In this document: piece by piece, positions 5,810 through 24,255 of the stretch
How the letters are laid out: every line of letters begins with the position of its first letter
Numbering within the stretch: position 1 is the stretch's first letter
Assembly (NCBI GenBank): GCA_024762395.1
Contig: JANTHP010000005.1
Location: 1 to 35,468, forward strand
Direction: 5' to 3'
Length of the DNA stretch: 35,468 nucleotides
Source: Anaerolineae bacterium
GTDB taxonomy: Bacteria > Chloroflexota > Anaerolineae > Promineifilales > Promineifilaceae
Notes under the pieces: generated by a model
What the model was told of the DNA's origin: nothing
Databases searched by the model: none
What the model saw: only the letters and a program-made list of their open reading frames with translations
Program-made: the position numbers and the translations under genes

Positions 5810-7438
5810 TCACATTTTACGTCTGAATACAATTTCCCCCGCAAAGATAGTTAAATCTACGGCCGTTTCCGCAATCCTTGTCGGCTCAATCTCAAACAAA
5901 TTCTGGTCAAGCAAGATTAAATCGGCCCATTTTCCGGCGGCGACGGAGCCTTGCACAGCTTGCTTACCCGCTAAAATGGCCGGCCCCATCGTGTAGGCGT
6001 AAATCGTCTCTTCCAGGCTAATTTTCTCCTGCGGATACCAGCCGCCAGCCGGTTGATGATGAGAGTCTTGGCGGGTAACGGCCGTTTCCATCCCCACCAT
6101 CGGGTTCAACGGCGCCACCGGTGCATCCGAGCCAAACGCCAATACCGTGCCCTTGTCCAGCAGCGTGCGGAACGCATACGTATAGCGTGCCCGCTCGCCC
6201 CAAACCCGGTCAGCCGTCGGCCAATCCGTCTGCAAATGCACCGGCTGCACCGCGGCAACGACCCCCAAGTCGGCCAACCGGCTCAGGTCGTCGGGATGAA
6301 GCAGTTGGACGTGTTCGATGCGGTGGGGGTGAAGGGGTGATGGGGTGATGGGGTGATGAGGCCCCGCAGCCTCGCCGCCTCGCAACTCCGCCAACACATC
6401 CAACACCTCGCGCACAGCGCGGTCGCCGATGGCGTGGACAGAGATGGGAAAGCCGGCCTTTTTTGCATTGACGGCCAGGTTCCACAAATCCTTTGCCGGG
6501 GTGACGGCAATGCCCGTGTTGTCGGGTTCGCCCTCGAACGGTTCCAGCATGTGGGCGGTGCGCGACCCCATCGTGCCGTCGGCAAACGCTTTAATGTGGC
6601 CGATCCACAGCCGGTCATCGCCAAAGCCGGGCTGTAAACCGAGGGCGGCGGCTTCGGGCAGCCGCTCGGCGGCAATGTTCATGTGGACGCGCAGCTTTAG
6701 ACGGCCGTCCCTTCTCAACTGCTGGAATAAGCGAAAACTTTGGTCGCCTTCATTCTCCACCCGCTGATCGTGGATGCCAGTCAACCCCAGCCGGTGGGTC
6801 TCGGCAATGGTGTCGGCCATCCAGTCGGCCAATGTCGCTTCGTCCGGTTCGGGGATGTGACGGCGCACCAGTTCGATGGCGTTCCATTCGCGTAAAATGC
6901 CGTTGGGACGGCCGTCTTCGTCACGTTCAATTTTGCTTTCTGGCGGATCGGCCGTTGCTGCGTTGACTCCTGCCCATTTCAAGGCGGCGCCGTTCACCCA
7001 CCAGGTGTGCATATCCATTCGCGCCAGGGCGACGGGGTTATTGGGGGCGATGGCGTCCAGCGCGGCGCGATGGGGGGCGCGATCCCACAGGTTTTCGTCC
7101 CAGCCCCAGCCTTGCACCCATTGACCGGGTTTGGCGTCAGCAACGGCCGTTTTCACCAAATCCAACACCGCGTCAAAATCAGCCACGCCAAACAAGCTCA
7201 CCTGCTGTCTGCGTTCGGCGATCTGCTGGAAATGCAGATGGGAATCGGTCAGGCCAGGCAGGGCGAGACGGCCGTTCCCATCCAGTAACTTAGTCTTTGG
7301 CCCGGCCAGCTTCAAAATCTCCTCATCAGAACCAACAGCCAGGAAACGGCCGTCAGCCATCGCCGCCGCCTCCGCCCAGGGCAAATCGGGGTCAACGGTG
7401 TAAATTTTGGCGTTGTGTACAATCAAATCAGCGTTCAT
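5810..7438 (-). CDS. Amidohydrolase family 3 (YtcJ-like) metal-dependent hydrolase
   Basis: Predicted cytoplasmic metal-dependent amidohydrolase of the amidohydrolase_3 type; substrate unknown. Typical motifs in order are LIVHNAKIYTVD, LPGLTDSHLHFQ (HxH metal ligands), HTWWVNGAAL, TGIHDQRVE, WIGHIKAFADGTMGSRTA, ISVHAIGDRA, HRIEHVQLL and LAFGSDAPVAPLNP. They include the conserved His and Asp ligands. The start at 7438 is chosen because TGGAGAA lies just upstream and it opens the conserved N-terminus. A longer frame to 7540 only translates a tandem repeat. Between VLAELRGGE and HRIEHV the protein carries a PHHPITPSPLHP stretch encoded by GGGGTGAT repeats (about 6328-6362), an apparent in-frame repeat insertion. 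It lies downstream of aroE on the same strand. Confidence 0.88.
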   Translation of the reverse strand: MNADLIVHNAKIYTVDPDLPWAEAAAMADGRFLAVGSDEEILKLAGPKTKLLDGNGRLALPGLTDSHLHFQQIAERRQQVSLFGVADFDAVLDLVKTAVADAKPGQWVQGWGWDENLWDRAPHRAALDAIAPNNPVALARMDMHTWWVNGAALKWAGVNAATADPPESKIERDEDGRPNGILREWNAIELVRRHIPEPDEATLADWMADTIAETHRLGLTGIHDQRVENEGDQSFRLFQQLRRDGRLKLRVHMNIAAERLPEAAALGLQPGFGDDRLWIGHIKAFADGTMGSRTAHMLEPFEGEPDNTGIAVTPAKDLWNLAVNAKKAGFPISVHAIGDRAVREVLDVLAELRGGEAAGPHHPITPSPLHPHRIEHVQLLHPDDLSRLADLGVVAAVQPVHLQTDWPTADRVWGERARYTYAFRTLLDKGTVLAFGSDAPVAPLNPMVGMETAVTRQDSHHQPAGGWYPQEKISLEETIYAYTMGPAILAGKQAVQGSVAAGKWADLILLDQNLFEIEPTRIAETAVDLTIFAGEIVFRRKM

Positions 7439-7560: not shown

Positions 7561-8508
7561 TCACCCGTTCACCCGCTCAATCGCTTCCCGCATCACCGCC
7601 ACGTCCGGCATAACGGCCGTCCACAGCTCAAAAGCCAGCGCGCCTTGATGGACGAGCATTCCCAGGCCATTGGCGGTGCGGCATCCGGCAGCTTTTGCTT
7701 GGCGCATCAGCTTCGTCTGGCGTGGATTGTAGACCAAATCGTAAACAAATGCGCCTTTGGGGATGGGTAAATCATCGGGCCAGGGGGAACTGTTTTCGTT
7801 GGGAGACATGCCCAGCGGGGTGGTGTTGATGATGAGGGGGGCGGTGGCGGCGCGAACGGCCGTCCCCAACTCCGCCAACGGCCAATAATTCAACCAAGCC
7901 TCTGGCAACTGCCGTTGCGGCGACAACCCCGCCACATACGGCGATAAATCAGCCACCAACTGCTGCGCCTGCTTCGGGCGCCGGGACATGACTTGCACAT
8001 GCCCGCCCGCCGCCAGCAGCGCATACGCTACCGCCCGCGCCGATCCGCCCGCGCCCAAAACCAGACAGTCACGGCCGTTCACCGCCACAGCCAAGCTCTC
8101 CAAATCCGCCAAAAAACCCGACCAGTCGGTGTTGTAGCCGGTAGTCTTGTAGTCTTGTAGTCGGGTAGTCTCGTAGTCTCCAGTCTCCAGTCCCCCAGTC
8201 TCTAGTCTCCCCCTCTCCACCACAATCGTATTTACCGCCCCAATCGCCTGCGCCGCCGGGTCAATCTCATCCAAAAAGGGCATGACGGCTTGTTTGTGGG
8301 GGATGGTGATGTTGACGCCGCGAAAACCGAGCGTGGGCAGGGCAGGAACGGCCGTATCCACATCCTCAGGCCGCACCGGCAAAGGCACATAAACCACATC
8401 CAGCCCCGCCGCCTGAGCCGCCGCATTGTGCATCGCCGGACTAAAACTATGCGAAACCGGCCAGCCAATTAAACCGATGAGTTGGGTTTTCCCCGAAATA
8501 GTTAACAA
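7561..8508 (-). CDS. aroE: Shikimate dehydrogenase with an in-frame repeat insertion
   Basis: NADPH-dependent reduction of 3-dehydroshikimate to shikimate in aromatic amino acid synthesis. The N-terminal GWPVSHSFSPAMHNAA, NITIPHK with catalytic Lys72, GYNTDWSGF with catalytic Asp128, nucleotide loop VLGAGGSARAVAYAL, INTTPLGMSP and the C-terminal GLGMLVHQGALAFELW are all intact. The start is TTG at 8508, supported by GGGAG six bases upstream. At 315 residues it is longer than usual (about 270-290). The excess is a 22-residue stretch between VVERG and GYNTDW, encoded by the same GACTACNN tandem units found between genes elsewhere. It sits at a surface-loop position where most homologs have only a few residues. 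The stop codon merges into a GGTGAA array. aroA lies upstream on the same strand beyond the BrnT module. Confidence 0.93.
   Translation of the reverse strand: MLTISGKTQLIGLIGWPVSHSFSPAMHNAAAQAAGLDVVYVPLPVRPEDVDTAVPALPTLGFRGVNITIPHKQAVMPFLDEIDPAAQAIGAVNTIVVERGRLETGGLETGDYETTRLQDYKTTGYNTDWSGFLADLESLAVAVNGRDCLVLGAGGSARAVAYALLAAGGHVQVMSRRPKQAQQLVADLSPYVAGLSPQRQLPEAWLNYWPLAELGTAVRAATAPLIINTTPLGMSPNENSSPWPDDLPIPKGAFVYDLVYNPRQTKLMRQAKAAGCRTANGLGMLVHQGALAFELWTAVMPDVAVMREAIERVNG
8140..8208. repeat. GACTAC-type tandem array embedded in aroE
   Basis: On the plus strand the units are TAGTCTTG, TAGTCTTG, TAGTCGGG, TAGTCTCG and then CAGTCTC/TAGTCTC variants. On the coding strand they give DYKTT, DYETTRLQ and LETGG peptides. 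The 8-bp unit is that of the intergenic arrays at 11294 and 21370. Three units (24 bp) equal eight codons, and the frame is kept. Confidence 0.85.
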
Positions 8509-11293: not shown

Positions 11294-11396
11294 GGTTTAG
11301 TCCTTTAGTCTTGTAGTCTTTAGTCTTGTAGTCTTTAGTCTTGTAGTCTTGTAGTCTTTAGTCTTGTAGTCTTGTAGTCTTTAGTCTTGTAGTCTT
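11294..11396. repeat. TAGTCTTG tandem array, 8-bp unit with 7-bp variants
   Basis: About a dozen units of TAGTCTTG or TAGTCTT fill the gap from the SEC-C start codon to the stop codon of the HAD gene. The TAA stop of that gene lies in the last unit. This is the same unit as in aroE (8140) and, inverted, at 21370. Confidence 0.85.
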
Positions 11397-12139
11397 TAAT
11401 CTAACCGCTCTAAAATTGGCAGTAGTTCATTTAATTGGGTGATGGTGTAATCGGGCTTTATGCCGTTTAATTGGTTGGAAAGATGGGGCGGGTTCATCCA
11501 AACGCTGATTAAGCCGGCATTATTGGCCCCGGCCACGTCATTTTCGGGCCGGTCGCCGACAAAGACAGCTTGTTCCGGAGCAACGGCTAACGATTCTAAG
11601 GCGCGGTGGTAAATGGCGGGATGAGGTTTGATATAACCCACATCGCCGGAAGTCAACCGCACATCGAAGTAGTCGAGCAATTGGTAATGACGTAATTCGA
11701 TATCGCGCATCCACATGGGCAGCATGGCGTTAGTGATAAGACCGATTTTGTAGCCATCTTGTTTCAAACGGGTCAGGACGGCAGCGGCATCGTTGTAAGG
11801 AACTGCGCCGGGCATGGGCTGCCAATCATAAACGCGCATCACTGCTTCCAGGTCTATTTGATCGGGATCAAGACCGATGTTTGTAAAGGTCTGGCGCAAA
11901 ACAGTGGCGAAACGAACGCTTTCCCAGGTTTCATTAGCTCTTTGCCAGCTTTGCTTTAACAGGTTGTGATAGATTTGATGGCATGTGTCGGCGTCGGGCA
12001 GCGTATGGCCGGCATCTGTCAGGTAAGCGTGTATATTGCCGATGCTGACGCGGCTTATCTCTTCCCAGGTTTTGGTGCGGCCTGACCAATCTATAAGGGT
12101 ATCGTCGAAGTCAAAGAGTACGGCCGTTACCTTTGCCAT
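11396..12139 (-). CDS. HAD-superfamily phosphatase
   Basis: Cytoplasmic haloacid dehalogenase-like hydrolase, substrate unknown. All four motifs are present: I, LFDFDDTLIDWS (residues about 8-19); II, GLITNAMLP; III, GYIKPHPAIYHRAL (lysine); IV, VFVGDRPENDVAGANNAG. The 247-residue length and the helical cap between motifs I and II fit subfamily I enzymes such as YjjG-like nucleotidases or phosphoglycolate phosphatase relatives. A GGGGG stretch precedes the start. It is followed at its stop codon by the TAGTCTTG array and preceded by the DUF368-DedA pair on the same strand. It could belong to the same operon, since only 21 bases separate it from DUF368. Confidence 0.85.
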   Translation of the reverse strand: MAKVTAVLFDFDDTLIDWSGRTKTWEEISRVSIGNIHAYLTDAGHTLPDADTCHQIYHNLLKQSWQRANETWESVRFATVLRQTFTNIGLDPDQIDLEAVMRVYDWQPMPGAVPYNDAAAVLTRLKQDGYKIGLITNAMLPMWMRDIELRHYQLLDYFDVRLTSGDVGYIKPHPAIYHRALESLAVAPEQAVFVGDRPENDVAGANNAGLISVWMNPPHLSNQLNGIKPDYTITQLNELLPILERLD

Positions 12140-21369: not shown

Positions 21370-21464
21370 CACTCGACCAAAAGACCACCAGACTACCAGA
21401 CTACCAGACTACCAGACTACCCGACTACCAGACTACTCGACTACCAGACTACCAGACTACCAGA
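21370..21464. repeat. CAGACTAC tandem array, 8-bp unit
   Basis: About eleven units of CAGACTAC with CCGACTAC and TCGACTAC variants run up to the GNAT stop codon. The gene's own last codons (GGTAGTCAAGTAG on the minus strand) match the unit. On the plus strand the array reads DYQTTRLP, almost the peptide found inserted in AroE. Confidence 0.85.
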
Positions 21465-22604
21465 CTACTTGACTACCTTCTCATAAATCCGATACGTCTT
21501 GTAAACCTTCCCGCCCATCATTGCCAGGGCGCGGTTCATCATATCATTATTTTCCAAAATCCACGACGCTTCGGCGAATTTGTACCCTTTGGCCGCGGCC
21601 GCTTTGGCCGTTTCGTAGTACATCAACGCATCAATTCCCTTGCCGCGATACGGCTCAATCACCCCCAAAATCAACACGCGCAGAAAATCGGCCTTTTTGC
21701 GGTTCAGCAGCGCGTAAGCGGCGCCCAGGTAAGAACTAAGCATGGATGGGCCGGGGTGAAATTTGTGCAGCGGTTGGTTGGCGTCGGGCAGGGAAACGGC
21801 TACGCCGACCGGCTTGCCATCCATTTCGACCAAAAATGTAATTTCCGGATCAAGAATCAGCTTTAATGATTCGGCCAGGTGGTCAAATTCGTGGTCGGTC
21901 ATGGGGACGAAGCCCCAATTCCGCTCCCAGGCGCTGTTGTAAATCTCCCGCACGCGCTCGACTTCGTTGTCCCAATCTTTCATGCGCAGGTTGCGGATGG
22001 TTAAATGGTAGCGTTTGGGCACTTTTTCGACGACATGCAGCAGTTTTTGAGGCATGTGGGCGACGGTTTCGTTAACATCGGCCCACCAGGCCCATAAATC
22101 CATTGCTTTGGCGAAACCGTTGGCCTCTAAAAAATCGGCGTAGTAGGGCGGATTGTAGGTCATCATGATGACGGGCGGGCTGTCGAAGCCGTCTACCAGC
22201 AGGCCGCATTCGTCGTTGGTGGAGAGGTTCATCGGCCCGACGATTTTGTCTACGCCGCGTTCTTTGGCCCAGGAAACGGCCGTATCCAACAAAAGTTTCG
22301 CCGCTTCAGCATCCTCCAACACCTCAAACACGCCGAAATGAGCGATATTTTCCTCATGGAACCAATTGTGCCGCGGGTTCAGAATGGCGGCGATGATGCC
22401 CACCGGCGCGCCATCCCGCCGCGCAATGAAAAAATCCACCTCAGCATGTTCAAAGAAAGGATGCTTGCCTTTGGTAAACGCAAACAGCCGGTCGTGGTAC
22501 AACCAGGGAACCCAATGGGGATCGTTTTTGTAGATTAGCCAGGGGACTTTAAGGAATTGACGTAACTGCTTGTTCGTCTGGACTTGTTCGATTTGTAGGC
22601 TCAC
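21465..22604 (-). CDS. GNAT-fold acetyltransferase-like protein, 379 residues
   Basis: The C-terminal part has an acyl-CoA-binding signature, VLILGVIEPYRGKGIDALMYYET (motif A with RGKG), and EASWILENNDMMNRALAMMGGKVYKTYRIYEK, typical of GNAT proteins. The N-terminal half, beginning LQIEQVQTNKQLRQFLKVPWLIY and including DPHWVPWLYHDR, occurs in a family of about 380-residue proteins found in many bacteria without known substrate. The start is GTG at 22604, supported by AAGGAGGT seven bases upstream. The stop codon is continuous with the CAGACTAC array. No partner genes hint at the acceptor. The product is predicted to be soluble. Confidence 0.75.
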   Translation of the reverse strand: MSLQIEQVQTNKQLRQFLKVPWLIYKNDPHWVPWLYHDRLFAFTKGKHPFFEHAEVDFFIARRDGAPVGIIAAILNPRHNWFHEENIAHFGVFEVLEDAEAAKLLLDTAVSWAKERGVDKIVGPMNLSTNDECGLLVDGFDSPPVIMMTYNPPYYADFLEANGFAKAMDLWAWWADVNETVAHMPQKLLHVVEKVPKRYHLTIRNLRMKDWDNEVERVREIYNSAWERNWGFVPMTDHEFDHLAESLKLILDPEITFLVEMDGKPVGVAVSLPDANQPLHKFHPGPSMLSSYLGAAYALLNRKKADFLRVLILGVIEPYRGKGIDALMYYETAKAAAAKGYKFAEASWILENNDMMNRALAMMGGKVYKTYRIYEKVVK

Positions 22605-24120: not shown

Positions 24121-24237
24121 AGTCAATACATCAGCTTGTCAGCTTGTCAGCGCGTCAGCGCGTCAGCGATTAAACCAACTGACTACCCGACTACCCGACC
24201 ACTCGACTACCTGACCACCTGACCACCCGACTATTTA
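24121..24237. repeat. Tandem arrays ahead of tnaA
   Basis: CAGCTTGT and CAGCGCGT units (24131-24170) are followed by CCGACTAC, TCGACTAC and CTGACCAC units (24178-24237). The second set belongs to the GACTAC family. No attenuator-like Trp-rich leader peptide was seen in the region. Confidence 0.75.
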
Positions 24238-24255
24238 ACCACACGGAGATGAGCC

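Follow-up and report, generated by a model that had tools for sequence, protein, structure and literature searches.

Tandem 7- and 8-bp repeat arrays recur in frame in one hairpin loop of shikimate dehydrogenase (AroE) in a family of Anaerolineae

Rickettsia palindromic elements (RPEs) enter genes in frame, are about 150 bp long and carry a conserved peptide (Ogata et al. 2000, 2002, as reviewed in PMC10969869). Heptameric repeats were described in Xanthomonas and Nostoc (PMC4692102), in Beggiatoaceae (PMC4679880), and in Chloroflexus (PMC6749651). In these repeats one strand is blocked by stop codons, and the Beggiatoaceae report foresaw insertion between protein modules. A literature search, with most subscription journals outside its reach, returned no case of such satellites at loops that are hit repeatedly in conserved enzymes, and it returned nothing on repeats in Promineofilum.

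The arrays analyzed here resemble RPEs in being dispersed, hairpin-capable, and in frame in many unrelated conserved genes, where they are apparently tolerated. In-frame presence in conserved genes was found for 35 arrays in 22 genes, and family-wide for AroE, HypF, and MutS. Judged by unit type and peptides, they are not palindromic units of some 150 bp that encode a conserved peptide. Unlike RPEs, they are tandem 7-/8-bp arrays of many families, often single-armed, and one loop was struck by different families in different species. With the heptameric repeats they share 7-bp tandem units spread genome-wide, a mostly intergenic location, some inverted pairs, and one stop-blocked strand. However, those reports center on one unit family per genome and on intergenic DNA, whereas here many families of 7 and 8 bp were found, the polarity of the arms is fixed, and conserved enzymes carry arrays at recurrent loops. 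The mitochondrial coding palindromes of Nematomorpha are likewise inverted repeats kept within working protein genes, but both of their arms code for conserved protein parts (PMC6649704), whereas these arrays lie in variable loops. Many dispersed intergenic hairpins are also formed by REP/REPIN elements with RAYT (Y1) transposases, but the elements here are tandem arrays.

The window is the whole 35,468-nucleotide stretch of contig JANTHP010000005.1 from a Promineifilaceae genome. Its features are listed in Table 1.

Table 1. Coordinates of aroE, its array and the other arrays of the window
Feature	Position	Strand	Basis
aroE, shikimate dehydrogenase, 315 aa, TTG start	7561..8508	-	NCBIfam NF001314, Pfam Shikimate_dh_N and SDH_C
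Array-encoded loop, residues 98-123, VNTIVV to GYNTDW	8140..8217	-	Alignment with relatives, outgroup loop lengths, low-pLDDT hairpin tip
GACTACNN octamer part of aroE array, about 5 units, sense strand	8141..8180	-	TRF period 8, pattern scan, census
Degenerate AGACTGG heptamer part of aroE array	8181..8219	-	TRF period 7/15; related units at the same place in G001, G014
Second in-frame octamer array, inside Amidohydro_3 gene 5810-7435	6326..6383	-	TRF, census; Pfam PF07969 spans array
Intergenic array, GACTACAA units	11296..11402	-	TRF, pattern scan
Intergenic GACTACNN array, about 12 units	21382..21477	+	TRF, pattern scan
Intergenic GACTACCC/GACCACCC array	24174..24242	+	TRF, pattern scan

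A profile search of the genome gave the 7561-8508 product as its sole AroE match. The whole protein scored 259 bits against the NF001314 cut-off of 248 and carried the catalytic K, N, and D, with K72, N93, and D128 invariant in an alignment with relatives (A1). The first-pass annotation had reported a repeat array within this gene, and Tandem Repeats Finder (TRF) and a pattern scan located it at that position. TRF assigned period 8 to 8141-8179 and period 7/15 to 8175-8219, with imperfect units (87% matches). The annotation had counted 22 residues at 8140-8208; that segment codes for 23 (RLETGGLETGDYETTRLQDYKTT), and the whole stretch to 8217 for 26 (ERGRLETGGLETGDYETTRLQDYKTT) between VNTIVV and GYNTDW, compared with about 6 in the outgroups. 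GACTACNNGACTAC occurred in 4 copies in the aroE array and 17 in the window (shuffle expectation 0.00), including the intergenic arrays at 11343-11379 and 21391-21476. A detail overlooked in the annotation is that, within the aroE array, GACTACNN was restricted to 8141-8180. The rest consisted of related AGACTGG heptamers, GACTGG-type units joined to the octamers. The insert is a composite, in which the heptamer array probably came first. GGCTAC, the native codon pair for the first two residues (GY) of GYNTDW, lies directly beside the array and is similar to the unit GACTAC, so it might be a candidate array seed. The adjoining Amidohydro_3 gene carries GCGAGGCG octamers followed by ATCACCCC octamers, encoding the peptide LRGGEAAGPHHPITPSPLHPH.

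The AlphaFold model of AroE had a mean pLDDT of 90.5, with residues 104-109 below 50, and Foldseek matched it to AroE structures. In this model, the insert joins strands 94-99 and 120-125 as the tip of their beta-hairpin and is predicted to be disordered beside a confident core. With N93 and D128 at the far strand ends, the modeled tip is probably directed away from the active site. For the G023 protein, with a 41-residue loop, the model gave the same core with residues 104-128 disordered. Strands and catalytic motifs remained intact despite the insert, as the annotation had stated for frame and motifs, and the low-confidence hairpin tip agrees with its suggestion of a tolerated loop. The presence of an insertion in AroE and its tolerance are well supported, the latter as judged from sequence and model.

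Loop lengths were compared from GAVNTI to GxNTD, a wider definition, in 79 motif-containing outgroup AroE proteins from Bacillota to Chloroflexota. The loop had 8 residues in 65 of them, 6 or 9 in 7, 12-13 in 6, and 22 in 1, so the short link expected in homologs (6-9 residues) was present in 72 of 79. The inserted residues were seen in none of the distant AroE proteins, and the loop differed even in the congener G001. By the same definition, 47 family genes had loops of 8 to 43 residues, with 28 in the source genome. Array-finding on DNA detected period-7/-8 arrays in the AroE core of 11 of these 47 genes, a count uncorrected for kinship, and all of them in the same hairpin loop, which by computation behaves as a hot spot; the remaining matches lay at or upstream of the N-terminus. 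These inserts, 60-130 nt of tandem 7-/8-bp units encoding unrelated peptides, came from no fewer than five repeat families without a common unit. The units were AGACTGG with GACTACNN in the source genome, AAGATTG in G001, AACAATTA plus CCAATCT in g2, CCGTWAN, TCACGCA, and GATTACS in g22, CATTCGT in G008, and GGTCAATG in G019. The recurrent site, the several families, the many affected genes, and the composite insert had gone unnoticed in the first-pass annotation.

A single ancestral AroE array, whose units were later swapped for local families, would also place arrays in one loop. The related heptamers of G000, G001, and G014, the octamer part that resembles a later extension, and the poorly resolved tree backbone are consistent with this explanation. 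However, the arrays of g18, g22, g7, and g2 had no unit in common. In the loop-free AroE tree, short-loop lineages split the array-bearing ones, with at least four array-label changes, three of them forced by well-supported (starred) branches. We consider a single arrival unlikely, though not negligible.

Turnover of the loop was fast. Close pairs of species, with loop flanks 91-96% identical, had most of the insert in common and differed by 12 nt (G003/G024), 6 nt (G023/G062), and 42 nt, equal to six heptamers (G023/G063), all multiples of three. G024 carried an intergenic hairpin array immediately upstream of aroE that G003 lacked.

Abundance of a unit in the genome was then compared with its presence in the loop. 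Five g22 genomes with arrays in the AroE loop contained 76-217 GATTACS sites, and G059, also of g22, contained one such site and had a loop without an array. CCARTCT sites numbered 298 in G024 and 49 in G003. For the loop unit of G008, no further copy was found in its incomplete genome. Across 39 genomes, loop length correlated with array density (rho 0.51, p 0.001; small samples, uncorrected for kinship). G010, G016, G025, and G030 are array-rich yet have short AroE loops; therefore, array abundance permits AroE-loop arrays but does not force them.

The genome-wide census covered 1.23 Mb of the source genome (stretches L165-L224), a draft assembly of 500 contigs, with genes called by a simple codon-based caller. 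The density per Mb was 120 for period-7 arrays and 61 for period-8 arrays; periods 5, 9, 10, and 11 gave 0-3 per Mb, and shuffles gave no arrays. The triple GACTACNN octamer occurred about 120 times in the genome. Merging yielded 198 arrays: 107 intergenic, 54 across gene ends, 2 at gene termini, and 35 inside genes, the last all in frame. Density was 0.65/kb in intergenic DNA and 0.033/kb within genes, about 20-fold lower. The repeats are thus heptameric and octameric satellites, over-represented genome-wide and mainly intergenic.

Array hosts included HypF (5 arrays), PtsI, 2-oxoacid dehydrogenase E2, PabB, a pyridoxal-dependent decarboxylase, and MutS, and a RACo-type activase whose C-terminal domain contains a GACTACNN insert of 32 residues. 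Among 30 family HypF genes, 44 array matches of different families were confined to five loops. The 20 matches among 30 family MutS genes all lay in a single domain III loop, at about residue 385. With five loops in HypF, one in MutS, and 22 array-bearing genes, AroE is one case of a general pattern.

The explanation we favor, and hold to be very probable, is that 7-/8-bp satellites disperse across these genomes and last within genes only where a loop tolerates them, provided that they are open and their length is divisible by three. The family genomes hold hundreds of dispersed tandem arrays, often as complementary pairs forming a hairpin. Slippage, template switching, or another process may grow and spread them, so that arrays would arise or lengthen at many sites, and purifying selection would clear most of them from genes. 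Persistence in a gene would require that extra residues are tolerated, as in surface turns or linkers, that the read strand is free of stops, and that three divides the total length. In AroE, the beta-hairpin tip between VNTIV and GYNTD appears to be one such site. There, an AGACTGG-type heptamer array, perhaps common to sister lineages, may have been lengthened by the locally abundant octamer GACTACNN. The outcome would be an enzyme with intact catalytic motifs and about 20 additional residues in a disordered loop.

The arrays also showed a fixed polarity. Inverted-repeat membership (score at least 14) was 43% for arrays and 2.7% for random spots, and some in-gene arrays were themselves inverted-repeat hairpins. 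Of 79 paired arrays, 67 had a purine-rich 5' arm and 2 a pyrimidine-rich one; in the other 10 the 5' arm was even. Stop codons were commoner in the purine-rich arms, and of the 47 arrays over gene 3' ends, 40 were rich in purines when read on the gene strand. Density was 1.33/kb in convergent gaps, 1.13 in co-directional gaps, and 0.50 in divergent gaps. Closeness to stop codons was 51% compared with 43% under random placement in the same gaps, barely above random, so a terminator role of the intergenic hairpins is not claimed. At L204:7361-7431, a hairpin lies between convergent genes, each arm giving its gene's stop codon.

A dispersal process specific to these bacteria might place paired 7-/8-bp array hairpins around the genome, nearly always with the purine-rich, stop-bearing arm first. 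A fraction would settle in recurring loops of core enzymes, MutS included, and steadily supply new loop sequence. This stronger proposal is doubtful at present. For REP/RAYT-type mobilization, Y1_Tnp (PF01797) was present in G000, but it was absent from the array-rich draft assemblies of G024 (298 CCARTCT sites) and G070 (72 CRTTCGT sites). On the evidence of these two assemblies, a RAYT mechanism is disfavored and REP/RAYT mobilization is unsupported.

Selection of the loop for a function, such as protein contact, a regulatory mRNA hairpin, or changed stability, was also considered. Loops persist and are remodeled in several genera, and the G023 aroE insert forms a strong RNA hairpin (z -6.5). 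However, loop sequences are unrelated between species and fast-changing, the source-genome insert is disordered in the model, and the HypF and MutS pattern points to a general process. The source-genome insert also had no hairpin and was not palindromic (RNA folding z +1.8), which rules out an RNA hairpin as the reason for this insert. Selected function is accordingly rated as quite improbable.

Contingency loci have non-triplet repeat units inside a reading frame. The 8-bp unit within aroE, not a multiple of three, could by slippage toggle AroE off and on as a phase-variable switch. The units are imperfect, however, and AroE is single-copy and biosynthetic. In addition, the loops of all 47 family genes were in frame, although this evidence comes from consensus assemblies and is partly circular, since only open genes were sampled and intact reading frames were thereby ascertained. 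The close pairs likewise differed by multiples of three, and a phase switch is very improbable. An assembly artefact, by which a repeat was mis-joined into aroE, is suggested by the 500 contigs and the way repeats mislead assemblers, but it is highly improbable given the intact frame and both flanks, the arrays of 11 separate genomes in the same loop, the inserts largely common to close pairs, and the different arrays found at the same place in independently assembled genomes of other species.

Repeats with 7- or 8-bp units would be expected to break genes. In AroE, HypF, and MutS they recur in frame at a small number of loops, in varied species and with varied units. This amounts to a natural insertion scan of protein tolerance, in which satellites are a measurable source of new loop sequence. 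This raises the question of how satellites spread in bacteria. Annotators should be aware that an unusual peptide within a conserved protein, for example DYKTTRLQDY or QSPISNLQSPI, can be a genuine insertion.

Several loci of the other hosts were recorded in addition. The hypF gene of the source genome (L189:4738-7134; relatives L266-L294) contained five separate in-frame arrays. In mutS (L199:14581-14610, L296-L324), about half of the 30 genomes carried arrays in the domain III loop. In the second hypF loop of G060 and G063 (L283 and L282), the peptides LSFDRLRT and AQDRLSN resemble another dispersed repeat family in frame.
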